DNA from: Actinomycetota bacterium
Lineage (GTDB): Bacteria > Actinomycetota > Actinomycetes > Nanopelagicales > Nanopelagicaceae
Length of the DNA: 38,392 nt
Reading direction: 5' to 3'
Assembly: GCA_009698845.1 (NCBI GenBank)
Contig: WLPI01000005.1
Location: 1-38,392 of the forward strand
Under the pieces are notes generated by a model. It worked only from the letters and a program-made list of their open reading frames with translations. It had not been told where the DNA came from and searched no databases. Shown piece by piece: positions 4,149-20,600 of the stretch (positions within the stretch are counted from its first letter, which is position 1; each line of letters opens with the position of its first letter). A program made the translations under genes and the position numbers.

Positions 4149-5240
4149 TTACTTAATAAGTAACTTCTTAACACGCCTACGTAATTCAATTACCAACACG
4201 CGTGCGCTCTGACGACGTAGAGTTCTGTTGTCTAGACCAATTAGTGCTTGAGCAGCCGTATCTAGTGAAACATGAGTAATCTCGGAATTGTTACCGGTAG
4301 GAATCTGTGCGGCAGCGAAACTATCTAAATTCCCAATGACTTCAACGCCTGAAGACTGAATCTGTCTCACTGATTCGACGCCTATTTCGCGAGCCTTCTC
4401 GAAGGCCCATTCTGGGGTAAGTAATTTCTCTGCATCTTTGGGTGCTTTGACTTTATCTGTAAGGTGTTTGATAGCCCCTTCACGAATATATATTTCATAT
4501 TCAGACCATTCGCGATTTTTTGGAAAAATCTTATTCACATGAAGTAGCAAGGTAACTTCTTCAAGAGTTAAGGAGCGATTACTTGCTACATCTTCGATTT
4601 GGGTTAACGTGCCAGCTGGAATACCGAGAATTGAGTTAAACGCTTCAAATATTGCTGTTGGCTCTTTCTCATCTGCCACAACAACAACAATATTTTCTGG
4701 TCCTAAAACTTTAGCCCATTCTGTTATCACTCGCCCATGTTCGTGGCGCTTCCAAAAAGTGGGAGTAGTTTTCGATACTCCAGGTTGATCAAGCACTGAG
4801 TGCAACCACTCTTCATAAGTTGGCTTCAAGCCATATTTCAAATACTGCTGATATGAAGATGCGAGTAACTTTACTAGGGGTCGGATTGTGAAAACGATAG
4901 TGAAATCAACGCCTTTGTTATCATCTTTAAATTTCTGAATCTGAGCTTCGCTTAGTTCGCAGAAGAATTCACTACTAATTAGGGTTGTGTGTTTGTATTT
5001 CTTAACCGCCTTAACGGCCTTCTTCCATTCTGCAATTGGAAAAGTTATTCCACCTTTATTTTTCCACCCCCAGGTGCGCCCAGTGAGCGCCCAAGCAGCG
5101 CGGTGATGAGCTTTTAAGCCAAAATCTGGGTATTGAATTCCTAGTTCTTTTAAAATCTCCCTATTTTCCGAGAAACTTTCTTGCAGGGCAGTGGTGCCGG
5201 TTTTGTGAAAACCAACATGAGCAACGAGACGTTTACTCAC
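4149..5240 (-). CDS. PAPS-dependent sulfotransferase-family protein
   Basis: This 363-residue protein begins with HVGFHKTGTTALQ (residues 8-20), the P-loop-like 5'-phosphosulfate binding motif of sulfotransferases. A strand-loop-helix with IRPLVKLLASSYQQY (Arg120, Ser128/129) matches the 3'-phosphate binding motif for PAPS. No signal peptide or membrane segment is seen, so it probably acts in the cytoplasm, perhaps on a nascent glycan or lipid-linked precursor. The start is GTG at 5240, overlapping the stop of the TSUP transporter by one base (TAGTG). It is therefore translationally coupled to the cysD-cysNC-transporter genes that make its sulfate donor. The acceptor cannot be told from sequence. 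It is the last gene of the operon. Confidence 0.85.
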   Translation of the reverse strand: MSKRLVAHVGFHKTGTTALQESFSENREILKELGIQYPDFGLKAHHRAAWALTGRTWGWKNKGGITFPIAEWKKAVKAVKKYKHTTLISSEFFCELSEAQIQKFKDDNKGVDFTIVFTIRPLVKLLASSYQQYLKYGLKPTYEEWLHSVLDQPGVSKTTPTFWKRHEHGRVITEWAKVLGPENIVVVVADEKEPTAIFEAFNSILGIPAGTLTQIEDVASNRSLTLEEVTLLLHVNKIFPKNREWSEYEIYIREGAIKHLTDKVKAPKDAEKLLTPEWAFEKAREIGVESVRQIQSSGVEVIGNLDSFAAAQIPTGNNSEITHVSLDTAAQALIGLDNRTLRRQSARVLVIELRRRVKKLLIK

Positions 5241-5995
5241 TATGAGCTTAACAATCTAAATCCATTGATCACAATAATTGCAATCGCTACAAATATTCCT
5301 AATTGCTTTCTTGGAAGCCAGCTAACGAGTTTGGCGGCGATGGGCGCTACTAAAACTCCACCGAGTGCTAAACCTCCCACTGCTGACCAATCAATATCTA
5401 ACTTACTTATATTAAGCAGGAAGCCCACGCTTGCACATACCGCCACAATGAACTCAGCGGCAGAGACTGTTCCGATAACTTTTCGTGGTTCGGTCTGCGT
5501 GGTTGCAAGAAGTGTTGGGGTGACGACGGGTCCCCAGCCACCACCTCCGGAAGCATCAATAAATCCACCAGAGAACCCAAGAAATGTTAAATACTTAGGA
5601 TTTGAAATATCAGCAACGTTAACTTGCTGGACCTGAACAAATAGATTGCGATACAGCAGAAGGAAGCCAAGAAGTAACAAGATAGTTGAGATAAAAACTT
5701 TTCCGGAGGAAAGATCTATATTTGATAGGAACGTTGCACCTAGCAGTGCGCCAACTCCACCCGGAATTGCAAGTCGGATGAGAATCTTTTTATCCACATT
5801 GTCGAGGTGCCAATGAGAAGCTCCCGAAGCCAAGGTTGTTCCAATTTCCGCAGCATGAACCGCGGCAGATGCAACCGCGGCAGATGTGCCGAGAGTGAGA
5901 AGGAGTGTTGAGCTTGTTAAGCCAAATCCCATACCAAGTGAACCATCGACTAACTGTGCCACTGAACCGGCAAGTGCGAAGAGGATCCAATTCAT
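5240..5995 (-). CDS. TSUP (TauE/SafE) family membrane transporter
   Basis: This 251-residue, highly hydrophobic protein has about seven to eight membrane segments and the duplicated TSUP layout: GSVAQLVDGSLGMGFGLTSS at the N-terminus and FSGGFIDASGGGGWGPVVT in the second half. Members move sulfur-containing anions (sulfate, sulfite, sulfoacetate, taurine-derived compounds). Its ATG overlaps the cysNC stop by 4 bases (ATGA), and its stop overlaps the sulfotransferase GTG. Given these partners, sulfate uptake feeding PAPS synthesis is the most likely job. Sulfite export is the alternative. The substrate is inferred from context only. Confidence 0.85.
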   Translation of the reverse strand: MNWILFALAGSVAQLVDGSLGMGFGLTSSTLLLTLGTSAAVASAAVHAAEIGTTLASGASHWHLDNVDKKILIRLAIPGGVGALLGATFLSNIDLSSGKVFISTILLLLGFLLLYRNLFVQVQQVNVADISNPKYLTFLGFSGGFIDASGGGGWGPVVTPTLLATTQTEPRKVIGTVSAAEFIVAVCASVGFLLNISKLDIDWSAVGGLALGGVLVAPIAAKLVSWLPRKQLGIFVAIAIIVINGFRLLSS

Positions 5996-7815
5996 AGCAA
6001 CTCTCTCATGATGCTCTCTACGTTGACTGAAATTTCTTCAGTTCCATCGAGAACTAATTCTGCATTAGTTGGTGGTTCGTACTCCTGTCCGACACCGCTG
6101 AGATTTGGCAAACTTCCATCTGCTGCCTTCTTATACAATCCTTTTGGATCACGCGCTGTGCAGACCTCAAGTGGAGTTTTGACCCACACTTCTGAAAATT
6201 TCCCTTTTTCGAATCTAGCGCGCGCATTATCGCGATCTTCTGCAAATGGACTTACCAAAGCAACGATGACAATTAGTCCTGCATCAGCCATGAGATGGGC
6301 AATTTCAGAAATGCGCCTTACATTTTCAGCTCGATCAGCACGAGTAAAACCAAGATCCTTATTTAGACCTAATCGCAAATTATCTCCGTCAAGCACATAG
6401 CTGTGCATACCAGCAGCAAATAGTCGCTTCTCTAATTCATTGGCGATAGTTGATTTACCCGATCCGGAGAGCCCCGTCAGCCAAATAACTTTTGCTCTTT
6501 GATTTTTTTGTGTCGCACGAGCTAGCGAATCTACTTCGTATTTGTGCTCAGAAATATTCTCTGATCTGCGTAGAACATGATTTACCATGCCTGCAGCCAC
6601 AGTATTTAGGGTTACTCGGTCTACGAGGATGAAACTGCCGCTATTTCTATCTTTTTTGTAGGGAGATAAAGCAATTGGCGAATCTGATGCAATTTCAACT
6701 GTGCCTATTTCATTCATAGCTAAAGCTTCTGCAGCTTCGTGATCGCCAGAAACAATTTCGATTCTATGGCGAATCTTTGTAACAATTGCTGGAACTTGCG
6801 TTGAACCAGAAATCAAATAATAGGAACGACTATGCACTAACTCTGTCTCTCCAAGCCAGACAAGTGTTGCATTAAAGCGATCTGCCGGAACAGTGAAGTT
6901 ACTAGCTAGCTCGACGCTATCTCCTCGAGTAGCATCAACATCTGGCTCGAGTACAAGGATTACTGCCTCTGAATCTCCAGCGCTATTTCGATCTTCGCCA
7001 TAAGAGACAATTTGCGAAATCTTGGCTTTGCGTTTGCTTGGTAGAACTACAACTTCATCACCTTTTGTAAATGTTCCGTTAAAGATGGTCCCAGAGAGCC
7101 CACGGAAGTTCTCTGCTCTTGCAATGAGCTGAACTCCAAGGTGCGGTTTTACAAGAAGCTCTACCTTCTTATTCCAGCTCTGAATGTATTCAAGAAGAGT
7201 CGGCCCTTTATACCAGGACATATTTGTACTTCGATGTACAACGTTATCTCCAGCAAGGGCGCTGACAGGCACTGCTTGGTAATCCAATATTCCTAAACGT
7301 GTAGCGACACTTGATAACTCTTTAACAATTCCTTGATATACATCTTCTGAGTATCCAACTGCATCAAGTTTGTTAACAACAACTGCAACTCTTGTGACAC
7401 CCATAAGAGAACATATTGTTAAGTGGCGCAATGTTTGTGTACGAATTCCACGAGCAGCATCGACAAGTACAAGTGCCACATCAGCGCGAGAAGCTGCAAC
7501 TGCCATGTTTCTTGTGTATTGCTCGTGGCCTGGCGCATCGGCGATGATTAATCGGCGGCCGTTTAGCAAGGACATAGAGCGATATGCAACATCAATTGTG
7601 ATCCCTTGTTCGCGCTCTGCTTCAAGGCCATCTGTTAGGAGACTGAAATCAACTTCTCCGGCGACGATTGTTGATCCGCTACGTCGAATATTTCGTGCTG
7701 CTGCCACGGTGTCGTGAGGAACGCTATCTGTTTCTACGAGCAAACGACCAATTAAAGTGCTTTTTCCATCGTCAACGCTGCCACAAGTAACAAGCCGAAT
7801 TATCGGTTGGGTCAT
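5992..7815 (-). CDS. cysNC: Bifunctional sulfate adenylyltransferase subunit 1 / APS kinase
   Basis: This 607-residue CysN-CysC (NodQ-type) fusion has an N-terminal GTPase with G1 GSVDDGKST (12-20), G3 DAPGH (93-97) and G4 NKLD (148-151), then the EF-Tu-like beta domains to about residue 415. The C-terminal APS kinase domain (about 440-607) has P-loop GLSGSGKST (448-456), LDGDNLR (475-481) and RADRAENVRR. With CysD it makes APS from sulfate and ATP and then phosphorylates it to PAPS. It starts at ATG 7815, sharing one base with the cysD stop (TAATG), and ends overlapping the transporter. No cysH or sulfite reductase gene is nearby, so the PAPS may serve sulfation rather than cysteine synthesis. 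Confidence 0.95.
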   Translation of the reverse strand: MTQPIIRLVTCGSVDDGKSTLIGRLLVETDSVPHDTVAAARNIRRSGSTIVAGEVDFSLLTDGLEAEREQGITIDVAYRSMSLLNGRRLIIADAPGHEQYTRNMAVAASRADVALVLVDAARGIRTQTLRHLTICSLMGVTRVAVVVNKLDAVGYSEDVYQGIVKELSSVATRLGILDYQAVPVSALAGDNVVHRSTNMSWYKGPTLLEYIQSWNKKVELLVKPHLGVQLIARAENFRGLSGTIFNGTFTKGDEVVVLPSKRKAKISQIVSYGEDRNSAGDSEAVILVLEPDVDATRGDSVELASNFTVPADRFNATLVWLGETELVHSRSYYLISGSTQVPAIVTKIRHRIEIVSGDHEAAEALAMNEIGTVEIASDSPIALSPYKKDRNSGSFILVDRVTLNTVAAGMVNHVLRRSENISEHKYEVDSLARATQKNQRAKVIWLTGLSGSGKSTIANELEKRLFAAGMHSYVLDGDNLRLGLNKDLGFTRADRAENVRRISEIAHLMADAGLIVIVALVSPFAEDRDNARARFEKGKFSEVWVKTPLEVCTARDPKGLYKKAADGSLPNLSGVGQEYEPPTNAELVLDGTEEISVNVESIMRELL

Positions 7816-8720
7816 TAGAAATACCCTTCCGTCTTTTTCTTCTCCATTGAATCTTCTTTTTCGCCATCAATTAGACGAGTGGCTCGCTCACTAAGCTTTA
7901 CATTCATTACTTCTTCCACAATTTCACTTACAGTCGTGGCATCGGATTCAACCGCTGCAGTAAGTGGATAGCAGCCCAAAGTTCTGAATCTAATTCGCCG
8001 CATCACTGGTTTCTCATTATTAATCAATGGGAATCGTTCATCATCGACCATAATCATTTGTTCGCCTCTGAATACAACTGGGCGTTCCTTTGCAAAGTAC
8101 AAAGGATTAACTGGTACGTCATGCTCTTCGATGTAGTTCCAAATATCTAGTTCAGTCCAATCAGAGATTGGAAAAACACGCATCGATTGTTCATTTGTAA
8201 TCTTCGGATTGTACGTGCGCCAGAGTTCTGGTCTTTGATTTCGTGGATCCCAACGATGCCCTGCTTCTCGGACGCTGAAAATTCTTTCTTTAGCACGACT
8301 TCGCTCTTCATCTCTGCGTGAGCCACCGATTGCAGCATCGAATTGATTTGCATCCAGCGCCTGGCGCAGCGCAACAGTTTTCATTACACGCGTGTACTCA
8401 GAGATTCCAGTATTGAACGGGGTGATGTTATCTGCAACCCCTTGTGCATTTGTATGAGTTATTAAATTTAAATTGTATTTTTTTGCCATTTCCCCTCGGA
8501 ATGAGATCATCTCTCTAAACTTCCAAGTTGTATCTATGTGCAAGACTGGAAATGGTATTGGTGCGGGCCAGAATGCCTTCATCGCAAGGTGCAAAAGCAC
8601 CGCAGAATCTTTTCCTATTGAATAAAGCAGCACTGGTTTGCGAAAAGCAGCCGCTGTCTCTCGAAGTATTTCTATGGATTCATTTTCAAGTGCTTTAAGA
8701 ATCTCAGAAGAACTATTCAC
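7815..8720 (-). CDS. cysD: Sulfate adenylyltransferase subunit 2
   Basis: This 301-residue protein is a PP-loop ATP pyrophosphatase. [16 protein letters not shown] carries the SxGKDS motif (34-39). [15 protein letters not shown] and [15 protein letters not shown] are hallmark CysD segments. It adenylates sulfate using ATP, driven by the GTPase CysN. I chose GTG 8720. An ATG just upstream is out of frame and closes after two codons. A perfect TATAAT ends exactly 6 bases before this GTG, placing the predicted transcript start on it. It is first gene of the cysD-cysNC-TSUP-sulfotransferase operon. Confidence 0.95.
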
Positions 8721-9729: not shown

Positions 9730-10482
9730 TTAACGGCCCAGAATGAATCTCACTGTGAGAAGGAAGCCAAATCTCTTCGATGGTGGCTTAAGGATAAAAA
9801 GTAACCTCATGAATGGTGCCAAAATTCCAAAGACACGTGAAAACACTTTTGATCGAGCTAACGCATCCGCTTTTGTATTACGCAAACTTCCTGAACTCTC
9901 TGAAGGGTGTGTAGCAATAACAATCGGGAGAACACGACCAATTAAACCAGCGCGCAGTGCATCAGCAATAAGTATGTACTCATCACCTAGATAATTCTTT
10001 GCTCCAGCACCAAAATCCTCATCGAAGTAAATTGATTTACTTTTGAAATCTTCCACTCTGATAATCATTTCGTACGTAGCAGCTTTCGCTGAATTTGTGA
10101 GTTTGAGATTATGGGCCTTACTTGGATAACTCTTCCGAAGGACGTTCTTCTCATCTACAGTCTGTAGCAACAGGATTGAGATATCTGAGTGGCTTTCGAG
10201 ATAAGCAATAGCGCTGTTGATTGAATCTTCGTTAAACACAATGTCGTCGTCGCCGAAAAGCAAGTACTTAGTTTCTGTATTCGAAATTGCCGCATTTCTG
10301 CTCTTTGCAACACCCCTACTTGGTAACTCTATTCTTTTGTATGTGCTGCCAGTTTGACTTGTGGCTAATGAGGTTGAACCTTGCACGATTACTAAGTTCT
10401 TGAAGGAGTCTAGAAACTGAATATTCTTCTCGCGTTCGGCCAGTGTTGAGTAGCCAATCGTCAATAAGGAGTTGCTATTCAC
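9730..10482 (-). CDS. Family 2-like glycosyltransferase
   Basis: This 250-residue GT-A fold protein has a nucleotide-sugar pocket with PSRGVAKSRNAAI (54-66), the usual GT2 helix before the DxD, then LLFGDDDIVF (DDD at 78-80). Downstream is FDEDFGAGAKNYLGDEYIL, the acceptor/base region with an ED-type motif. The C-terminal 45 residues are basic and hydrophobic, suggesting peripheral membrane contact. GTG at 10482 overlaps the preceding membrane-protein gene by 8 bases, so it ends a four-gene operon that begins with the large CDP-alcohol phosphotransferase. It probably adds a sugar to the lipid- or glycopolymer-linked product of that operon. Donor and acceptor are unknown. Confidence 0.8.
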   Translation of the reverse strand: MNSNSLLTIGYSTLAEREKNIQFLDSFKNLVIVQGSTSLATSQTGSTYKRIELPSRGVAKSRNAAISNTETKYLLFGDDDIVFNEDSINSAIAYLESHSDISILLLQTVDEKNVLRKSYPSKAHNLKLTNSAKAATYEMIIRVEDFKSKSIYFDEDFGAGAKNYLGDEYILIADALRAGLIGRVLPIVIATHPSESSGSLRNTKADALARSKVFSRVFGILAPFMRLLFILKPPSKRFGFLLTVRFILGR

Positions 10483-11245
10483 TATGTGTTAGCGCCCTTG
10501 CAAATCTCATAAGACCACTTGAGATATTGGATAAGTTGGAGTTCTGCATACGTAATCCAAAGAAGAGAACTATCGTATTGGAAGGGCTTATCTGCCCGTT
10601 GTAACTCAAATAGATTAGAGCGCCTAGGAGTATCAACATCGCTGATCCAGAGATAAGGATTCCGGTCTCTCCAGATTTAATGCGTGTGCCGATTTTTACA
10701 GCATTTGTGACCGGATTCTTATTCTTTTTTGCCTGCACAAAACCTCGCTGCGCTTCAATCTGGCTCTTAAACAAGCGCCCATAAATATGGAATATGAAGA
10801 GCACCACCAGAATGTTTAGAAGTCCAAAGCCCCAGTTGAGATAAGTGAAGAAAAGAATGATGACAAATAACTGAGTGCAAGTACTGAGTAGAGTTGTGAG
10901 TTCAAAAGCTAGCGACCAACGCCAGTTTTCTCTTGAACCCTTAACATCTGATTTCGAAGCCTTAAATGCTTTTTCAAAGACATTTACCCGATAGATGCGT
11001 TGGAAATAATGTCCTGCTCTGGTGGCGCCAAAGAATAAGAAGAATCCAGTGACGAAGATAGCGAGCTTGGTTTGGCTCATCGTTCCTTCATTCAGGATGA
11101 TTCCAGTGAATAACTTCGCTACCGCTAACTCAGATACCGAGATAAATGCTGCAATAAGAACCAAACTGACCAGAATTAACCGATATTTTCTAGTCGTAAA
11201 TAAATCATGAAAAGCCAGTTTGAGTTCGCGAGCGACAACTATCAT
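10475..11245 (-). CDS. ABC-exporter-like transmembrane domain without ATPase
   Basis: This 256-residue polytopic protein has five to six membrane segments (about residues 21-43, 63-82, 116-138, 138-155, 197-220, 222-236). Charged linkers and a closing GLRMQNSNLSNISSGLMRFARA resemble the end of the transmembrane half of type-IV ABC exporters, where the linker to the nucleotide-binding domain would begin. The gene stops there and overlaps the GT2 gene by 8 bases. No Walker A, signature or Walker B motif is present in any frame nearby. It is third in the operon, 3 bases after the CDP-alcohol phosphotransferase. It may be an export or scaffold subunit using an ATPase from elsewhere, or a repurposed membrane domain. 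The family call is by pattern only. Confidence 0.55.
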   Translation of the reverse strand: MIVVARELKLAFHDLFTTRKYRLILVSLVLIAAFISVSELAVAKLFTGIILNEGTMSQTKLAIFVTGFFLFFGATRAGHYFQRIYRVNVFEKAFKASKSDVKGSRENWRWSLAFELTTLLSTCTQLFVIILFFTYLNWGFGLLNILVVLFIFHIYGRLFKSQIEAQRGFVQAKKNKNPVTNAVKIGTRIKSGETGILISGSAMLILLGALIYLSYNGQISPSNTIVLFFGLRMQNSNLSNISSGLMRFARALTHSE

Positions 11246-11248
11246 GGC

Positions 11249-12022
11249 TTAATTATTCCTTAATTTTGAAGAAGTCACGATCGCGGCAATGTGTCCAGCG
11301 GTGACAAATAGCGCTATTGCAAGTGCAATTTCTAGTGAAATCGCATAACTTCCGAAGATTGCCACAAAAATTGTAAATTCGATGGAATGGAACATCCGTT
11401 GAGCGGGCAGGTAATTGAATACCTTGCGAAGAGTTCGCAAAATCCCCTTTATCGGAAGATTCACGCCTTTCTTATCCTGGATTTTACTTAATCCGGAGAA
11501 TGCTCTGGCAACGTGCACAGCATCATTGAGTCCTTTATTGAAGATCACAAGTATTGCAAGAAGCGCTCCAAGGTATGGATAGATAGAACTAGTTACAGGT
11601 TCTTCCGGAAATCCAGCAAGGCGCAGTCCAAAGCAAATCGGAATTAGCGATTCCGCGAGGTAGTGCCCCAACTTATCCAAAAAGATTCCCATAGGAGATT
11701 TCGTATCTCTCCAACGCGCAACTTCGCCATCACAGCAATCAATAAGCATTTGAAGTTGACTTAAGAAGAGAGCGAGCGCGATTCCAACCCATCCTTGAAT
11801 GAGCAGCGCAGGACCAATTGATGCACCAGTGAGAATCATTAACCATGTAACACCATTTGCTGAGATCGATGTGCGTAAAAAAATACGAGTGAGGTATGGA
11901 GAGAGTCGGCGTTGATAAAGATCTGCAATCCAGTGTTCTGACGTTGACCGCCCAGTCACTGAAACGGGCTGCGAAATTTCACGGATTTGCGCGATTGTTG
12001 GCCGAGCCGGTCTCTCTATCAT
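11249..12022 (-). CDS. CDP-alcohol phosphotransferase with altered catalytic motif
   Basis: This 257-residue membrane enzyme belongs to the CDP-alcohol phosphatidyltransferase family, which transfers a phospho-alcohol from CDP. The signature is D95-x2-D98-G99-x2-A102-R103-x8-G112-x3-D116-x3-H120. The last position is His (codon CAC) where the family has the catalytic-base Asp. About five or six membrane helices follow residue 55. It is second in the operon, 2 bases after the larger paralogue, which has the complete motif. Its substrate is unknown. The H120 change may mean altered chemistry, a structural partner role for the paralogue, or a different base. Confidence 0.85.
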   Translation of the reverse strand: MIERPARPTIAQIREISQPVSVTGRSTSEHWIADLYQRRLSPYLTRIFLRTSISANGVTWLMILTGASIGPALLIQGWVGIALALFLSQLQMLIDCCDGEVARWRDTKSPMGIFLDKLGHYLAESLIPICFGLRLAGFPEEPVTSSIYPYLGALLAILVIFNKGLNDAVHVARAFSGLSKIQDKKGVNLPIKGILRTLRKVFNYLPAQRMFHSIEFTIFVAIFGSYAISLEIALAIALFVTAGHIAAIVTSSKLRNN

Positions 12023-12024
12023 CT

Positions 12025-13650
12025 CTACTTCGCCACTACTTTGCGACTAGCAATCCACTGAACTGAAGAGACAATAAAGAATAGGAAAGCTAAGTAATAG
12101 AGAAGTGGTTGGAGCGATAAGCCTGACCACAGAAGAACCGCTACAACCAGAAGGCGACCTGCAATAAAGCCACCAGCAATTGAGAGCCACTTTGGCTTTG
12201 CTTCTGATTGAAGCGCCCGATACATATTGTCATAATGGTTAAAGAGAATTGCAAAAAGTAGTAAGAATAGAACTGATCGATCTAGATCTGTGAAAGCTGC
12301 TAGCCAGATGAATACAGAACCCTCAATCAATCGAAGAAGTGATGGTTGAAGCCAATCAAAGCGATTATTAGATTTCTCATTTCGGAATGTGTCCAGTTGA
12401 TCATCAATCAGATTTCTATTTACTCGATCCTTGGGCCATGTGAGTGTTTTGCGAATGCGCCCTCGGAATACCAATGCGATTGAGAAGAGAGCCAGAATAG
12501 GCATTATTGTGAAAGTGAATGCGGCACCTCCAATTACAGATGAAGCACTAATCACTAGCCAGCGCTCACCAATTGGGAATTGCACAGCTTTCTTCGACCA
12601 GTATTCGAATCGAGACTTCTTCTCGCGTTCGGTACTTACATACCCATCCGATTCGATATCAAAATCAAGTGGCTCAAGGTAGGAACTGCGAATCTTGTTG
12701 ATGCGGGCAAAGTTGTAATCAGAGATATGTCTAAATGTTTGAAAAAGCATCATTCCCATCGCTGGAATCCAGAGATCTCTACCATCCTTTGCAGCTCCAT
12801 ATGCAAGAGCAAAGAAGACTAGATACTCCTTAATTCTGTCTGTAATTGCATCTAACCATGCACCTAGTTGAGAAAATTGTCGGGTATACCTTGCTAGCTC
12901 GCCATCAACGCAGTCGATAATGATGCTCAATTGCAGCAATACCGCACCAGCAAAAATTGACCAGAATGTTCCGCGGCTGAACTCGTATGCAGAAATAAGC
13001 CCTACTGCAAAAGAAATGAGTGTGACTTGGTTTGGTGTCATCTTCAATCGGACGGCAAGCCAAGTAAACAATTTCGAGAATTTACGAAGGAAGAAGACTG
13101 AGAAAAATCCATCATTTGCACGATTGGCAAGCTTTAGACGTAGTCGAGCATCGTTTAGTGAGGAAATTTCTTTTCTCACTTCCTCACGTTCGGCCGGATT
13201 AGCAGAACGAATAAACGGCGCACCGGCAACTGTTGCAGGAGCGACAACAAGAGCGGCACGCACAAGAGCAACCAGTACAAGGTCTAGAGCGCTACCTTGG
13301 TGCTTTGTATCTTTTACTCTTGTTAAAACTTCAATAATCTCAGCCCGCTGAAATTGCGAGAGGCGCATAATTCCCAAAAATGTGTAATTGCCATGGCCAA
13401 CTTCGTGATATCCAGAACTTGCTCCGGTTATTCGACCTTGGCTTATGCGAGTTAAGCCACCTTTAGTTTTGGTAACTAGGGCAGTAGTGACTGTGCGCGG
13501 ATAGTCCGTGAGCAACTCAAGATGGGGTTGCGATACAACTGTATTTTCATCTACTAATAAGAGATCTTGATTGCTGGATTCGAAAGCAGTGAGAATTTCA
13601 GCAATCTTGGTGTCCGGATGAACATCAAAAGTACGAAGATTTCCCGCCAT
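12025..13650 (-). CDS. Large CDP-alcohol phosphotransferase with degenerate nucleotidyltransferase-like N-terminus
   Basis: This 541-residue protein carries the complete CDP-alcohol motif D246-x2-DG-x2-AR-x8-G263-x3-D267-x3-D271 within a membrane domain (about 205-420), plus a further hydrophobic C-terminal region (about 430-540). Residues 1-115 (LLLVDENTVVSQPHLELL, GNYTFLGIMRLS) look like the rear half of a sugar/alcohol-phosphate nucleotidyltransferase but lack the GxGxRL phosphate loop. The layout recalls bifunctional inositol-phosphate cytidylyltransferase/CDP-alcohol transferase proteins, and the large actinobacterial proteins annotated with DUF5941 (from memory, unverified). The missing cytidylyltransferase activity is probably supplied by the divergent gene at 13712. 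It heads the operon; TAGATT lies 7 bases before the ATG. Confidence 0.8.
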   Translation of the reverse strand: MAGNLRTFDVHPDTKIAEILTAFESSNQDLLLVDENTVVSQPHLELLTDYPRTVTTALVTKTKGGLTRISQGRITGASSGYHEVGHGNYTFLGIMRLSQFQRAEIIEVLTRVKDTKHQGSALDLVLVALVRAALVVAPATVAGAPFIRSANPAEREEVRKEISSLNDARLRLKLANRANDGFFSVFFLRKFSKLFTWLAVRLKMTPNQVTLISFAVGLISAYEFSRGTFWSIFAGAVLLQLSIIIDCVDGELARYTRQFSQLGAWLDAITDRIKEYLVFFALAYGAAKDGRDLWIPAMGMMLFQTFRHISDYNFARINKIRSSYLEPLDFDIESDGYVSTEREKKSRFEYWSKKAVQFPIGERWLVISASSVIGGAAFTFTIMPILALFSIALVFRGRIRKTLTWPKDRVNRNLIDDQLDTFRNEKSNNRFDWLQPSLLRLIEGSVFIWLAAFTDLDRSVLFLLLFAILFNHYDNMYRALQSEAKPKWLSIAGGFIAGRLLVVAVLLWSGLSLQPLLYYLAFLFFIVSSVQWIASRKVVAK

Positions 13651-13657
13651 AAGCGGT

Positions 13658-13663
13658 AATCTA
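13658..13663 (-). promoter_or_regulatory. Putative -10 of the CDP-alcohol transferase operon
   Basis: TAGATT lies 7 bases before ATG 13650 with no Shine-Dalgarno. A TTGACC exists further upstream but at 21 bases spacing, too far for a standard -35. Confidence 0.35.
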
Positions 13664-13700
13664 TCGTGCTTAAGTGGAATTTTCGGTCAAAGATAGGTCT

Positions 13701-13706
13701 AGAAGG
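13701..13706 (+). promoter_or_regulatory. Shine-Dalgarno of the nucleotidyltransferase gene
   Basis: AGAAGG lies 5 bases before ATG 13712. This gene therefore has a leadered mRNA, unlike the opposite-facing gene at 13650. Confidence 0.6.
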
Positions 13707-13711
13707 TAGAG

Positions 13712-14407
13712 ATGGCGATTCAAGTAGTAATTCTTGCAGCAGGTATGGGAACTAGGTTGGGAAAACCATGGCCTAAGCCACTTACTGCATTATCTGATGG
13801 CCGATCAATCATGCAGCAGCAAATGGAGAACGTGACAAAAGTTTTCGGCGACAAAGCACGAATAACTGTAGTCGTCGGATTTAAACTGGAAATGATTATT
13901 GAAGCGCATCCAACAGCAAGTTTTGTTTATAACGAAGTTTATGATCAGACAAACACTTCTAAGAGTTTGCTTAAAGCATTAACTGCAAGTCACGAGCCAG
14001 GTGTTCTCTGGCTAAATGGTGACGTTGTTTTTGACTACAAGGTATTAGAAAGAGTGGCATCACGCATTGAAGAAGAGAAATCCTTTGTCTGCGTGAATAC
14101 TTCTGCAACAGCCGAAGAAGAGGTTAAGTACACAGTTGATGCCAATGGTCACATTAAGGAATTATCTAAGACGGTTAAAAATGCACTTGGTGAAGCAGTA
14201 GGTATCAACTTCATTTCTTCCAGTGAGAAGGCAGATGTAATCGCGCAGCTGACTGCATGCGGAGATCAGGATTATTTCGAACGTGGATTAGAACTTGCTA
14301 TTGAAAAGAATGGCATCAAACTCGAACCTGTTGATATCTCTGATCTATTCGCTGTGGAAGTAGATTTTCAAGCAGATTTAGATAGAGCTAACGCAGGTCT
14401 CAAGTAG
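13712..14407 (+). CDS. NTP transferase, probable phospho-alcohol cytidylyltransferase
   Basis: This 231-residue GT-A-like nucleotidyltransferase has phosphate loop AAGMGTRLGKPWPKPL (GxGTRL 11-16, Lys22 catalytic), NGD at 102-104 in VLWLNGDVVFD, and a late acidic residue in FAVEVDFQADL that would bind the second metal. The short length and the segment YNEVYDQTNTSKSLLKAL resemble LicC-type choline-phosphate and inositol-phosphate cytidylyltransferases rather than longer glucose-phosphate enzymes. It is divergent from the CDP-alcohol transferases, separated by 61 bases, and so likely makes their CDP-activated donor. The nature of the alcohol (inositol, choline, glycerol, sugar alcohol) is not readable. 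Its stop abuts the stop of the convergent gene with no gap. Confidence 0.85.
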   Translation: MAIQVVILAAGMGTRLGKPWPKPLTALSDGRSIMQQQMENVTKVFGDKARITVVVGFKLEMIIEAHPTASFVYNEVYDQTNTSKSLLKALTASHEPGVLWLNGDVVFDYKVLERVASRIEEEKSFVCVNTSATAEEEVKYTVDANGHIKELSKTVKNALGEAVGINFISSSEKADVIAQLTACGDQDYFERGLELAIEKNGIKLEPVDISDLFAVEVDFQADLDRANAGLK

Positions 14408-16249
14408 TTACAGCGCCACTCTACGCAATCCTTCTTTGATTGCCATTTCTACTTCTGAAATCTTCAGATCAGAAATCTTAATTGTTTCAATCAGAGGTTC
14501 AATCTCACTCCAATTAATCTTCGGATTAATGGGTGTTGGGCTAATGACTTTCACATCAGCTCCAAGTGCGTAATCTATGTATTTGATTCCATCACCATGG
14601 ACGTATTCTTCAAATCCTTTAAAGACAACCAAAGCGCAAGGAACTCCGTAGCTTTGGCATGTGATTAGTACGTGCATGGCGCTTGTTACGACATAATCGT
14701 ATTGAAGAAGCTTCTCGATGAATTCAACAATGTCATTTGGGTGTGAAACCTGAACTGACAGCTCATCGAAGTTATCTGGAAGCTTTACTGGCGCTTGCAG
14801 GTGAGTATGGTGACGGATCAGTGCAACGCGGCCATTGGTGGCACCGCGCGTTAAAGGAAGAATTCTCGAAAGAACGACCCCTGGATCGCCAAAAGTTTCA
14901 ACTTTAGGGCCTCCCGATTGAATAAGTAGCTCCGCAGTATGTGGCCCTCGAACTGAAACAAAGTCCGCCTTTGGATTTATTGCGTGTTTGAAAGAACTGA
15001 CACCTGTTCCAACAACGACTGAATTGCTCTTAATGAATCGTCCGACTGAGCCAAGACTTACCAAGTGCTTTTTAGGCGCGCGAGTTGTTAATCCTTGAAA
15101 AATAATTTTGTTCTCTGTGTAGTGATTAAAAATAAAAGGCGTTAACCAATCCCCGAAATTTCCAGGATATGGATTCTCCCACCACGCTAAGGTGATTTTA
15201 CTTCTCGCAGGTTTTGAAGAATATGCCAAGAAACTAGAAGCTACTCGTATCGCAGCACTTTCATATCTATTTGGTAACACCTTACGTTTAAAAATCGTTA
15301 GATTTTCATTGTACTTATCTACATCCCCCGCTTTAGCTGCAAAAACCAATTCGCGAACGGCTTCGCTACTGAGGTTATTGTGTTTCTTCCCTGTTAAGAA
15401 TCCGGTAATACCCGATGCATCGACTAGTAGGCGCAATTTAGTCGAGAGATTTTCAGGTAATTTTTCTTCAATTAACTTGGCAAGCTGAAGGACTTCTCGC
15501 TTTGGATTGAACTTTTTCTTAGCTTTACTGCCTTTATGTTGCTCAACTTTGTTTTTGAAGTTTTCAACCTGGCCACTCGACCCGAATCGGAAGAAAACTT
15601 CGTGGCTTTCTAGAGTTCCAGCACCTTTATCTACCGCGCAATTTGAAGGAATGATCTGGAATGTCATGTTTGGTGAAACGGCTCGCCATGCTTCTTCAAA
15701 AAAGAAATCATCGGTTGCTCGCACTGTTGCAGCAGCTTCGAAATCTGCAGCTGCTCTCACCATTTTTCTTGCTTGCGCGGTGGTGTTGATTCCCCAGAAA
15801 CATGGCTCCCAAAAACGGCCTCTATTTTCATAACCAATTTTTGCTGGAGTACTGAATCCTCGCTGGAAGCCAATAATGTCAGCAGTTGAATGGAGAATAA
15901 AATCGGGAATTGAAAAAATCTCGCAATCTACGTCGATCCAGAAGACTTTCTTTCCTGGGTTTGCTTCACACACTTCAGCGATAAAACCGACTTTTTTGCG
16001 GCATATATCGGCCCAATCTTCGCCTTGATGCTTTGAAATTTGTCGCAAATCATAAGCAATTCCAAGTTCTTCAAGGTTTGCTTGAAGGCGCAATGCATGA
16101 CTTCTGTAATAGTCATCGCCAGTAAAGAAGGAGCAGACAAGTGCATTTTCAATCTTTAATTGCTTACCATTTTTGAGTGAGACCGGAGGGGTGAATTGCT
16201 CTTCTAGGGCAGCAAGGATGTTCTTGCCTTCGAAGTCAAGGGCGCTCAT
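14408..16249 (-). CDS. Glycosyltransferase-like / polysaccharide pyruvyl transferase fusion
   Basis: This 613-residue protein has two parts. Residues about 34-230 look like a GT-A-type nucleotide-diphospho-sugar transferase, with KKVFWIDVDCEIF (D106-x-D108), FWEPCFWGIN and TDDFFFEEAW. Residues about 350-580 are a polysaccharide pyruvyl transferase domain (WcaK/CsaB type): GNFGDWLTPF (363-372), VRGPHTAELL (433-442), TFGDPGVVL (452-460) and TSAMHVLITCQSYGVPC (522-538). It would add a sugar and a pyruvate ketal (from PEP) to a surface glycan, giving negative charge. A linker (about 240-345) joins the two. It is convergent with the nucleotidyltransferase, stop to stop, and has its own probable leaderless promoter. 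The first domain's assignment is weaker. Confidence 0.75.
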   Translation of the reverse strand: MSALDFEGKNILAALEEQFTPPVSLKNGKQLKIENALVCSFFTGDDYYRSHALRLQANLEELGIAYDLRQISKHQGEDWADICRKKVGFIAEVCEANPGKKVFWIDVDCEIFSIPDFILHSTADIIGFQRGFSTPAKIGYENRGRFWEPCFWGINTTAQARKMVRAAADFEAAATVRATDDFFFEEAWRAVSPNMTFQIIPSNCAVDKGAGTLESHEVFFRFGSSGQVENFKNKVEQHKGSKAKKKFNPKREVLQLAKLIEEKLPENLSTKLRLLVDASGITGFLTGKKHNNLSSEAVRELVFAAKAGDVDKYNENLTIFKRKVLPNRYESAAIRVASSFLAYSSKPARSKITLAWWENPYPGNFGDWLTPFIFNHYTENKIIFQGLTTRAPKKHLVSLGSVGRFIKSNSVVVGTGVSSFKHAINPKADFVSVRGPHTAELLIQSGGPKVETFGDPGVVLSRILPLTRGATNGRVALIRHHTHLQAPVKLPDNFDELSVQVSHPNDIVEFIEKLLQYDYVVTSAMHVLITCQSYGVPCALVVFKGFEEYVHGDGIKYIDYALGADVKVISPTPINPKINWSEIEPLIETIKISDLKISEVEMAIKEGLRRVAL

Positions 16250-16343: not shown

Positions 16344-17633
16344 CTAACGGCGGATTCTGCGCACTACGCGCCACACAATAAAAGCAACAAACAAGCCGCC
16401 GAAACCTTGCCAGAACGAAATTGGGAATCGGTTATGTTTATCTAGTGCTGGGCTGATGAATGAGCCTTCAGCGGAGAAATTCAGTGAAGTAACTACGCCC
16501 GCGTGATCGGTCCCATATGGCGGCTTTTGGCCAATGATTTTACTTGTCAGAACCTGCACGCCATTTTTTACAAATATGTAATCAAGGCGATCGGTAAATC
16601 CATTTGAGTTGCCCATCTTTTTTGCGGCAGATTCACGAACTGGGTCCGGACCTGTCAATAGAGCGTTCATCCCCCAGGTAAATGTTGTGGGTTCACTTGA
16701 ATCAGGACCTACATCCTCAAAACCAGCTTCTTCCATCACTCTGTATGCACTACATATCGATGATCCTGTTGGGCATTTTTCACTTTCAACCGGTTGTTCT
16801 CCAGGGTTAGCCGAACTTTTTGGTCGCGGATCTCTTGGGTCAGAATTAAAATCTCCGATAATCACGATAGGAGATTTTGTATTCTTTAAATCTTCTACAA
16901 GTTGGCGAGCTTGTTCGGCTGCTTTGGGAATTTTGTTCTCATCCCATAGTGATTCTAAATGGGTAGTAACAAAGCGCACATTTCTGCCCTGGACGGTGAT
17001 ATCTGCCCATGTATACCCTCGATAAATCTCCATCAGCGTAGGGACCACTTTGTAGATTGATTTGTACTCAGAATTTCCGACCTGATTTATATACTCACGC
17101 AATTCCTTTTTTACTAAGAGAACATCACCGATTTGAAAACCACACGCTGCTGAATCTTGGCCATAGAGTGGTTGGAAGACATCCGGATCATTAACCTTTG
17201 TAAGAAAAGGGATTGGCCCGATTGAATAACCTGGGTTATTGGCTTCCTGACCATTTTTTGTCGCGATAATGTAATCGTCATTTAACTCTGCGAGCAATTC
17301 TCTAGTGAAGTTGTAAATTTCAGTTTTCTTGCTCCAGGGTTTAGCTTTGCAATACCAAATTGTTGCCTCTTGGATTCCAATTACATCTGGAGACTCACTT
17401 CTAATTTCCCTAGCCAGTATTGATTTCCGCAGTGAAAAGTCAGTCTCTTTCATCTGCTTCCACATAAATTGTGCAGCAGCTGGCAAGTTGGGGATTTTTT
17501 CAAGTGCAACACCAACATCAGCTCCAAGGTAAAGATTTCGTGACATCACCTTTACCGGAGCTTCTTCTGCCGATGCAGGAAGTGATGGTAGAAAAAGTAT
17601 TCCAGTGATAGCCAACAGAAATATCTTTTTCAT
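16344..17633 (-). CDS. Secreted, membrane-anchored endonuclease/exonuclease/phosphatase-family enzyme
   Basis: I start at ATG 17633, ten codons inside the longest frame, because GGGGGAG lies just upstream and a signal peptide follows (KK, then IFLLAITGILFLPSLPASA, cleavage near residue 22). This gives 429 residues. EEP-fold active-site motifs are SRNLYLG (31-37), IGIQEA with Glu89, THLESL, IIGDFNSDPRDP, LDYIFV and GTDHAGV. The fold hydrolyses phosphodiesters or phosphomonoesters (DNA, sphingomyelin, inositol phosphates) with metal. The C-terminus ends with a membrane helix (FWQGFGGLFVAFIVWRVV) and RRIRR, so the domain would sit outside the cell, tethered. It starts 8 bases after the putA stop and is likely co-transcribed. 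The substrate is unknown; phosphate scavenging is one option. Confidence 0.85.
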   Translation of the reverse strand: MKKIFLLAITGILFLPSLPASAEEAPVKVMSRNLYLGADVGVALEKIPNLPAAAQFMWKQMKETDFSLRKSILAREIRSESPDVIGIQEATIWYCKAKPWSKKTEIYNFTRELLAELNDDYIIATKNGQEANNPGYSIGPIPFLTKVNDPDVFQPLYGQDSAACGFQIGDVLLVKKELREYINQVGNSEYKSIYKVVPTLMEIYRGYTWADITVQGRNVRFVTTHLESLWDENKIPKAAEQARQLVEDLKNTKSPIVIIGDFNSDPRDPRPKSSANPGEQPVESEKCPTGSSICSAYRVMEEAGFEDVGPDSSEPTTFTWGMNALLTGPDPVRESAAKKMGNSNGFTDRLDYIFVKNGVQVLTSKIIGQKPPYGTDHAGVVTSLNFSAEGSFISPALDKHNRFPISFWQGFGGLFVAFIVWRVVRRIRR

Positions 17634-17641
17634 ATCTCCCC

Positions 17642-20600
17642 CTACGCTTCTAAACCAGAACAACGTGGCTTAGGTCCACCATTTGGGTTCCCATAGCGAT
17701 GATAAGTAATCGCCACTGATTGCTCAATCAACCAGCGAGGGGTTTCAATATCCCCGCGCTGAGCAATAGGGCGATGATCAACCGAGATTCCTTTTTGTAA
17801 TTCTTCATAAATTGGAGGTTTACTTGATGCGAGCCAACGTACTCTCGAATACGTCTCACGCACATCACTGAGATCTGTTGTAAAAATTACTTTTGCGCCA
17901 GTGGTTTCGGAGATGTGATGTATTAATGACTTCTCCTCCTGAGTACTTGATTCGTCAACAACGATGACAATCGGTGCGAGGTAATGTCGGTAGCGTTGGA
18001 AGTTCTTTTCAACCAACAAACCTGATCTATCGATTGCTTGTGAGCCAACTTTCGCCCACCAAGTATTTACTCCGTATATTGCGGCTTCTAAGTTAGTAAC
18101 ACGAGGCCAATTTCGAAGGGTGTTTACATAATTTAGACCACCTGCCTTCGCATTAGGTCCGACTGCGGAACGTTTCCATCCACCGAAAGGTTGCCGATTT
18201 ACAATTGCTCCAGTAATTCCTCGGTTGACGTAAAGGTTTCCAGCTTCAATGCGATTTAACCACTCTTCGCATTCCTGTTCATCAAGTGATTGAATTCCTG
18301 CAGTAAGTCCAAAATCGGTTTCATTTTGCCAATCAAGCGCGGTATCAAAATCTGGTGCTTCAATAATTGCAAGCACGGGTCCAAACCATTCATTCCTGTG
18401 TGACCAAGATTTGGCTTTCACTCCCAATTTAACTCCTGGGCGCCACATTAAACCTGCCTGATCTAATTGTTGTGGCTGTACAAGCCAACTCTCTCCATCG
18501 TCTAACTGGGTAAGCGCGCGCGTAAGTGCGTTCTCTGATGGACGAATGATTGGACCTACAGTTGTTGAAAAGCTCCAGCCGGCTCCAACATGCAGAGATT
18601 CAACTGCGTCTTTTAGTTGACGAATGAATGCTGGGTCTTGATAAATGTTTGTATCAACAATCGCAATTGATGCAGCTGAGCACTTCTGTCCAGCATGACC
18701 GAATGCTGATTGAACCAAGTCTTTTACTGCAGCATCAATATCTGCACAGGCAGATATAAGTACAGCATTTTTGCCGCTTGTCTCTGCCATTAAATTGATC
18801 TCTGGTCGCCAAGAAGTAAACATTGATGCGGTATCAAATGATCCAGTAAGAATCAGGCCATCGATATCTGGGTGAGTAATCAAATACTTTCCATTGTCAT
18901 CATCTCGCATCGGCAAAAATTGCAATACATCTTGAGGAACTCCACCTGCCCACAGGTGGCTTGCAACTTCCCACGCAGTTGCAACACTCTCGGGTGCTGG
19001 TTTGAGAATGACAGAATTTCCTGCAGCAAGTGCGGCGCACACGCCACCCATTGGAATTGCATATGGAAAGTTCCAGGGTGGAACAACAAGAATTGTCCCT
19101 AGTGGTGTTGATTCACCAAAATTTTGTGCAGTAGTTGCATAGAAGCGAGCAAAGTCAATGGCTTCTGCTACCTCGGGATCAGCCTCTGCAACAGTCTTTC
19201 CGGCATCTCGAGACATCACTGCAATAGTTTCTACTATGGATTTTTGCATCACCGAAGCAGCACTGAAGAGAATAGATGTTCGTTCTTCTATAGAAAGCGT
19301 GCCCCAATTATTCTGGGCGCGCTTTGCTGCTTGAACCGCTTTATCTACCTCCTTTGTTGAGCCTACGCTGTAGTGATACCAAACTTTTCCATTATCTGAT
19401 GGGTCAGTTCCTTCTTCTTGCTCTTTTGTGAAAACTTCTTTTCCATCAATTACTAGTGGAATTTCTTGATCTTTAATGTCTCGAGCTTTCTTTATTGCTT
19501 TGCTAACGGCCTTAATGAATTCGGGCTCAGTCGGATCAGCATTTCGTTCATTCTCAAAATTAGTACCAGTTGCAATCTCATGCTCAATATGGCGAAGTGA
19601 TTGAGTTGTAACTGAATGACGCTCTGAAATTGATAAACGGAATCTCGCTTCTTGTTCTTTAAACTTCAATGGGTTTTTAGAGATTTCAAAGGCTGCCTTC
19701 AAATAATTTTCATCTGATGTATTTTCATCTAATCGGCGAACTAGGTATGCAACTGCAGCTGCAAAATCATCTTTACGAGTTACCGGTGCATACAGCAGAA
19801 CCGGTTGGCCTGCGCGCGTTACAGCAAGTGCTTCGGCATTTGCCATGCCTTCAAGCATTTCAATATCTATTTGATCAACAACGCCTCGAGATTTCGCTAC
19901 CTCTAGTGCCCATGTCATGTGAAATAGATTGTGAGACGCAATTCCGATGCGTACGGCTTGTGAATGTTCAGGGCGAAGTGCAGCATCTATCAGCCTTACA
20001 TACGAAGCATCCACATCCGATTTTGATCGGTAAGGCGCAGAATCCCATCCATGAAGTTCTGCCTCCGCACGCTCCATTGCAAGGTTGGCACCCTTTACAA
20101 GGCGAACTTTGATGCTTCCACCATTGCGAGCAAATCTTGACTTCGACCATTGCACTAATTCTGCAAAGAACTTATGCGACTCTGGAAGATACGCCTGTAG
20201 AACGATTCCAGCCTTCATGCCTTCAAATTCTGGTTCATCTAGAACGCGCATGAATGCGGCAACTGTCATAGGCAGATCGCGGTATTCCTCCATATCAAGG
20301 TTTACAAATACACCGTGTTGTTGCGCTTCGCGATACAGAGTTCTCATCTTCTCTGAAACTCTATTAATCGAACCTTCGACATCAATAATTATCAGCTGAG
20401 CAACTATCGAAGAGAGTTTGACTGAAATGTAATTCACCTCTGGACGACGCATCATCTCTAGAATTGACTGGAAACGAAGTTCCGCTTCGTGATCTCCAAG
20501 CACAGCTTCACCTAACACATTGATGTTTAGAGATATTCCCTTGGCTGTTCGCTTGGATAGATGCTTAGCGAGCTTTTCATTTTCTGATGCAAGAATCAAA

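Follow-up and report, generated by a model that had tools for sequence, protein, structure and literature searches.

A patchily conserved locus of freshwater Nanopelagicaceae with a putative CDP-glycerol-based, teichoic-acid-like function

What might a bacterium make with a nucleotidyltransferase, two CDP-alcohol phosphotransferases (CDPT1 and CDPT2), an ATP-binding cassette (ABC)-type membrane domain, a GT2 glycosyltransferase and a pyruvyl transferase, all encoded side by side? Such a six-gene block lies in a 38,392-nucleotide stretch of DNA (contig WLPI01000005.1 of assembly GCA_009698845.1, our contig C45; hereafter the window) from a freshwater Nanopelagicaceae genome of 1.2 Mb that is about 80% complete. 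Our proposal is a non-canonical pathway of a teichoic-acid-like kind, which would yield an envelope glycolipid or glycopolymer containing glycerophosphate; we put the probability of this reading at roughly 0.58. An earlier sequence-only reading had described a four-gene operon with two flanking genes, and all six open reading frames (ORFs) were indeed found at their coordinates (Table 1). The operon runs CDPT1, CDPT2, ABC-type membrane domain, GT2, with spacings of 2 nt and 3 nt and then an 8-nt overlap. The nucleotidyltransferase gene is divergent from the operon, with 61 bp between them, and borders directly on the convergent gene for the glycosyltransferase (GT)-pyruvyltransferase protein. 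Pfam backs all of the assignments but two, the ABC-type gene and the N-terminal half of the 613-residue protein.

Table 1. Features of the locus and its surroundings, in window coordinates
Feature	Position	Strand	Basis
MobA/LicC-type nucleotidyltransferase	13712..14407	+	PF12804, 63 bits; sole PDB sequence match PntC
CDPT1: possible relic nucleotidyltransferase-like N-domain, CDP-alcohol phosphotransferase, DUF5941 membrane tail	12025..13650	-	Pfam, PDB profile
CDPT2: CDP-alcohol phosphotransferase family, fourth signature Asp replaced by His	11249..12022	-	PF01066, 33.1 bits (cut-off 22)
ABC-exporter (MsbA-type) transmembrane domain lacking a nucleotide-binding domain, 256 residues	10475..11245	-	AlphaFold and PDB fold match
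GT2 glycosyltransferase, last gene of the operon	9730..10482	-	PF00535, 30 bits
613-residue protein: N-terminal half GT-A-like by eye, polysaccharide pyruvyl transferase	14408..16249	-	PF04230, 48.5 bits, residues 394-540
Possible sulfotransferase (associated, not core)	4149..5240	-	HKTGTT P-loop by eye; PF00685 E 0.09, below cut-off
CysNC-type and CysD sulfate-activation genes (associated, not core)	5992..8720	-	CysD PF01507, 195 bits; CysNC by sequence

The block, with its nucleotidyltransferase diverging from the CDPT1-CDPT2-ABC membrane domain-GT2 operon, is patchy yet well conserved. Counted by strong matches, about 33 of 121 family genomes have CDPT1, spread over 6 of the 17 sampled genera; within the window's own genus, only the host carries it (1 of 15 genomes). 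The gene order is kept in dozens of relatives, well above chance expectation. The locus-bearing relatives are freshwater actinobacterial metagenome-assembled genomes, some of them titled Candidatus Planktophila or Nanopelagicales. Among aligned relatives, identity to the window is 66-94% for the nucleotidyltransferase (within Nanopelagicaceae) and 38-86% for the membrane domain; over a wider sample it is 35-93% for CDPT2 and 31-88% for CDPT1. Outside the family, clear orthologues of the nucleotidyltransferase were found in eight genomes (51-67% identity). Cluster members have the GT2 gene next to the membrane domain, with the exception of the rearranged locus L064 (7601-12388), where CDPT2 and the membrane domain precede CDPT1 and GT2 comes at the end. 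Three freshwater records titled Bifidobacterium breve (L057, L062 and L069) also hold a Nanopelagicales locus, at 70-82% identity; their titles look wrong.

Glycerol phosphate is suggested by the company that orthologues of these genes keep, namely TagF-like genes, AraM-like together with TagGH-like genes, and glycerophosphodiesterases (GDPD). A TagF-like (PF04464) gene stands directly beside the nucleotidyltransferase in seven Nanopelagicaceae loci (L110-L115 and L121). Outside the family, the orthologue abuts such a gene in L190 and L191, the pair being followed by a GDPD gene in L190, and a PF04464 gene lies within about 6 kb of the orthologue in L186, L187 and L188, with L187 also holding a strong PF04464 protein (277.6 bits); no PF04464 gene was present in the stretch of L189 that was read. 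In L106, the PF04464 protein abuts a more distant nucleotidyltransferase of the Streptomyces type. GDPD genes follow GT2 in many relatives. The Streptomyces-type loci themselves, with counterparts in several other lineages, run DUF5941-CDPT1, nucleotidyltransferase, Fe-ADH_2 protein, CDPT2, GT2, ABC2-membrane permease and ABC ATPase, the last two forming a TagGH-like exporter. Their Fe-ADH_2 protein has glycerol-1-phosphate dehydrogenase as its best NCBIfam match (248 bits, below the cut-off of 413), and this AraM-bearing form recurs in L105, L107, L157-L160 and L163. A 2026 synteny study describes a region with araM, tagG, tagH and genes for a CDP-alcohol phosphatidyltransferase, a GT2 and a sugar-phosphate nucleotidyltransferase, and ties it to teichoic acid biosynthesis (PMC13118837). 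One Streptomyces cluster adjoins a squalene/phytoene synthase gene (L102, 751-1677), possibly part of a hopanoid cluster.

The nearest relatives of the two CDPTs also point to glycerol. CDPT1 matches PF01066 (47.5 bits, residues 205-323) and DUF5941 (PF19365; 39.4 bits vs. a gathering threshold of 27, residues 429-523), and its signature D1xxD2GxxAR..G..xD3xxxD4 is complete (DCVDGELARYTRQFSQLGAWLDAITD), all four Asp being invariant in 27 rows. Searched against the PDB, its profile found AF2299 (83 bits, 1e-22) and DIPP synthase (4mnd, 72.5 bits) well ahead of other structures; for CDPT2, AF2299 was again nearest (61 bits, 1e-15), followed by IPCT/DIPP synthase (33 bits). AF2299 uses CDP-glycerol as its donor, and enzymes of the AF2299 and DIPP synthase type have a small hydrophilic donor pocket (PMC4634129). 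Given these relatives, the donor of the CDPTs is likely a soluble, polar CDP-alcohol.

The same search bears on a quite improbable alternative, that of a DIP-like pathway in which the nucleotidyltransferase would make CDP-inositol from inositol 1-phosphate, and CDPT1 and CDPT2 an inositol-phosphodiester lipid or solute. The match of CDPT1 to IPCT/DIPP synthase (NF041135, 76.9 bits, as well as 4mnd) and the inositol phosphate synthase of the host genome are in its favour. However, the scores are far under the equivalog cut-off of 580 (for the nucleotidyltransferase, 31.4 bits), the host's own PIP synthase already accounts for the inositol phosphate synthase, and TagF-like, AraM-like and GDPD neighbours suit glycerol, not inositol.

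Could the CDPTs instead be housekeeping phospholipid synthases? Both fall short of the NCBIfam equivalog cut-offs: CDPT1 scores 26.6 vs. 109.1 bits for pgsA, 58.2 vs. 170 for PIP synthase and 27 vs. 240 for ClsA, and CDPT2 24.2 vs. 170 for PIP synthase. The host has its own PgsA (120.1 bits) and PIP synthase (210.3 bits) on other contigs, both above these cut-offs. These scores and separate enzymes rule the housekeeping role out, and the presence of host PgsA and PIP synthase elsewhere favours the teichoic-acid-like reading. In a tree of CDP-alcohol phosphotransferases (CDP-APs), albeit one with long branches, CDPT1 and CDPT2 stand apart from the host PgsA, PIP synthase and Cls-like enzymes. 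It should be noted that the C-terminal half of PgsA occurs in two near-identical copies in the host genome (L001 and L006, contigs C29 and C71), probably an assembly redundancy. The N-terminal domain of CDPT1 is possibly a relic of a nucleotidyltransferase-like domain; it was rejected as a true nucleotidyltransferase, the profile comparison being weak (E 0.004, probability 8%) and the domain missing in L113-L115. CDPT1 is present as two ORFs in L070 (7424-9219), owing to a frameshift, a sequencing error or true gene splitting, and is likewise in pieces in G344 (contig C102). Our literature search found no paper naming DUF5941.

The nucleotidyltransferase had been called likely CTP-dependent, and this agrees with its only PDB sequence match, the cytidylyltransferase PntC (38.9 bits in a profile search), a CTP-dependent enzyme (PMC6697681). 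PntC also ranked first structurally, with an AlphaFold model too weak for pocket comparison (pLDDT 57). The comparison with the pocket of TagD that the sequence-only reading had suggested would be uninformative, since TagD belongs to another fold family (PF01467). In NCBIfam, GlmU and UTP-glucose enzymes are matched weakly, which could hint at an ordinary sugar-nucleotide locus, where the nucleotidyltransferase would act as an NDP-hexose synthase and the CDPTs as spare synthases of phospholipids. We consider this highly improbable: the PDB profile search matched no hexose enzyme at E 0.001, the CDPT profiles match AF2299 at the E-values given above, and the tree, with its long branches, separates the CDPTs from the phospholipid synthases of the host. 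Neither a nucleotidyltransferase among NDP-hexose synthases nor CDPTs among PgsA/Cls enzymes, the two outcomes that the sequence-only reading had named as contrary to it, was found.

The PntC match, by sequence and by the low-confidence model, raises the further, very unlikely alternative of phosphonate or phosphocholine tailoring, in which the nucleotidyltransferase would be a PntC/LicC enzyme and the product would bear aminoethylphosphonate or phosphocholine. One locus of another actinobacterial family, L192 (9572-14687), has a 51%-identical nucleotidyltransferase orthologue beside a fusion of phosphoenolpyruvate (PEP) mutase to a PF01467 cytidylyltransferase and a LicD-like gene; it is likely a phosphonate surface-tailoring locus. 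However, the PEP mutase of L192 brings its own cytidylyltransferase domain, no LicD was found in the window's block, and no PEP-mutase-family (PF13714) match was found in the host (G000) or in four other locus-positive genomes (G303, 98% complete; G322, 94% complete; G333; G341). A phosphonate pathway is not required, as PEP mutase is absent from several locus-positive genomes.

Several observations weigh against the teichoic-acid-like reading. The sole PDB sequence match of the nucleotidyltransferase is a phosphonate enzyme, and the L192 orthologue is next to PEP mutase and LicD. The nucleotidyltransferases of the AraM-bearing clusters are distant relatives, only about 27-30% identical to that of the window in L105-L107. 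No TagF-like PF04464 gene was found in the host genome, at its completeness of about 80%, and the only Fe-ADH_2 match above cut-off there, the one candidate for AraM, proved to be AroB. Furthermore, PF04464 enzymes can use CDP-ribitol as well. Biochemistry for any member of the locus was not found in the literature.

Gene content, conserved order, enzyme classes, the loss of the fourth Asp in CDPT2 and the fold of the ABC-type membrane domain are established by our analysis; beyond these, we infer the alcohol (glycerol, with moderate confidence), the acceptor, the order of the steps and the product. In the pathway that we propose, the nucleotidyltransferase would make CDP-glycerol from CTP and glycerol phosphate, and CDPT1 would move the glycerophosphate unit from CDP-glycerol to an acceptor, either soluble or in the membrane, with CDPT2 making a second linkage or assisting that of CDPT1. 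The GT2 and the glycosyl/pyruvyl-transferase protein would attach sugar and pyruvate, and neighbouring sulfate-activation genes may contribute sulfate. Finally, the ABC-type membrane domain would flip or export the lipid-linked product, perhaps using an ATPase encoded elsewhere. No TagF, AraM or TagGH was seen at the window locus, and the product of this branch may therefore be a short glycolipid and not a long polymer. The mechanism of the sequence-only reading is largely right, its enzyme classes and its sugar and pyruvate decoration genes being supported, but the system is not isolated.

The most unusual protein of the locus is CDPT2. In the CDP-AP signature, D1-D3 are reported to bind metal and D4 to serve as the catalytic base (PMC4634129); in CDPT2, D1-D3 are intact and D4 is a His (residue 120, bases 11663-11665), in a motif (D..DG..AR.8.G...D...H) that is invariant in 22/22 aligned orthologues. 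Throughout the fetched loci, which overlap, so that the counts are of copies and not of independent events, the CDPT2-type signatures, with Trp after AR, have His as their last residue in 88 copies and Ala in 16 (from Streptomyces loci), vs. Asp in 141/141 of the other CDP-alcohol signatures. CDPT2 forms a single clade in the CDP-AP tree (support 100/99), the one grouping that we trust given the short alignment and long branches. From its sequence, CDPT2 would either employ a different base or be a pseudo-enzyme. One tentative proposal, compatible with the teichoic-acid-like pathway, is that it is a donor-binding or regulatory pseudo-enzyme aiding other glycerophosphate transferases: no copy seen has the proposed base, which is replaced by His or Ala, and a D-to-N change at D4 almost abolished PIP synthase activity (PMC4634129). 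On the other hand, the metal-binding residues and the remaining signature are intact, and L155, L156 and L186 have CDPT2 beside a GT2 and a TagF-like gene with no detectable CDPT1, so that CDPT2 is not merely the partner of CDPT1. A bolder and unlikely proposal is that CDPT2 represents a phylum-wide subfamily working by a new catalytic arrangement without the supposedly essential Asp, its AraM-linked forms basing a bacterial surface polymer on the archaeal stereoisomer, sn-glycerol 1-phosphate.

According to its AlphaFold model, the ABC-type gene encodes a complete, conserved MsbA-type membrane domain without its ATPase, in line with the earlier call of an ABC-type membrane domain. The model (pLDDT 81.4) shows six long transmembrane-type helices; its top PDB match is an ABC exporter transmembrane domain (Z 18.5, root-mean-square deviation 2.8, 244/256 residues), and nearly all of the top-ranking structures are ABC exporters. 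No Pfam match was obtained for the gene. The 16 aligned orthologues all end at 256-262 residues. The gene itself stops at residue 256, and no ORF with the Walker A and signature motifs of an ABC ATPase was found in the window.

For the 613-residue protein, the predicted GT-pyruvyltransferase fusion held for the pyruvyl transferase half (PF04230), but the N-terminal half had no Pfam match and its GT label comes from inspection by eye. At least 12 relatives have this gene adjoining that of the nucleotidyltransferase. Next to the block, and unmentioned in the sequence-only reading, lie CysD and CysNC-type sulfate-activation genes, which in the window (4149-8720) and in some relatives (L062, L064 and L065) are found together with a TauE-type exporter and the possible sulfotransferase. 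CysD and CysNC are likewise next to the block in L062 and L064, and homologues of the possible sulfotransferase adjoin it in many relatives; the product may therefore be sulfated. On the far side (16344-17663) is a gene for a member of the endonuclease/exonuclease/phosphatase family, whose N-terminus is signal-like and whose C-terminus has a membrane helix with an Arg tail; L051 and L052 have this gene next to their block as well.

In lakes, freshwater Nanopelagicales belong to the most abundant bacteria, and our literature search found no paper linking them with teichoic acid. If correct, a CDP-glycerol-type pathway would offer a handle on their envelope, and would give an enzymatic meaning to DUF5941 and to the Streptomyces cluster, which we found described as synteny only. 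The CDPT2 subfamily, for its part, questions the indispensability of the fourth Asp in a very large family of membrane enzymes.

How does the locus compare with known systems? Its ABC-type protein shares the transmembrane domain fold of MsbA/PglK type exporters across all 256 residues, but a nucleotide-binding domain is neither in the gene nor in the window. The nucleotidyltransferase has the PF12804 fold, the CTP-dependent relatives and the cell-surface tailoring logic of PntC/LicC; in contrast, several locus-positive genomes lack PEP mutase, and its partners are CDP-APs or TagF-like genes, not LicD. Like IPCT/DIPP synthase (PDB 4mnd, NF041135), the locus combines a putative cytidylyltransferase with CDP-APs that would work on a soluble polyol, but here the nucleotidyltransferase is a separate gene, the equivalog cut-off is far from reached and the neighbours are those of surface polymers. 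AF2299 (PDB 4o6m) is the closest solved relative of both CDPTs, and its fusion of a cytidylyltransferase-like domain to a CDP-AP is possibly echoed in CDPT1; however, CDPT1 has an additional DUF5941 tail and an N-domain that is a relic at best, and CDPT2 lacks the fourth Asp. The canonical wall teichoic acid pathway (TagABDFGH) resembles the proposed chemistry (CDP-glycerol, phosphodiester linkages, export), whereas the window nucleotidyltransferase is not of the TagD type and the host genome has no detected TagF-like gene. The closest parallel is the Streptomyces araM-tagGH region, which, like the window, brings together DUF5941-CDPT1, a sugar-phosphate-type nucleotidyltransferase, CDPT2 and GT2 (PMC13118837). 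The window differs from it in having no AraM and TagGH-like genes, an ATPase-less ABC membrane domain, a pyruvyl transferase fusion, a distantly related nucleotidyltransferase and a His instead of an Ala at the fourth-Asp site of CDPT2. The earlier view that the locus fits no standard pathway is right in that it is neither canonical wall teichoic acid nor DIP, but must be amended in that it has teichoic-acid-like relatives, the Streptomyces form being already in print. Since the same enzymes are accompanied in these relatives by TagF-like, AraM-like and TagGH-like genes, the best reading of the locus is a variant of the CDP-glycerol, teichoic-acid-like kind.

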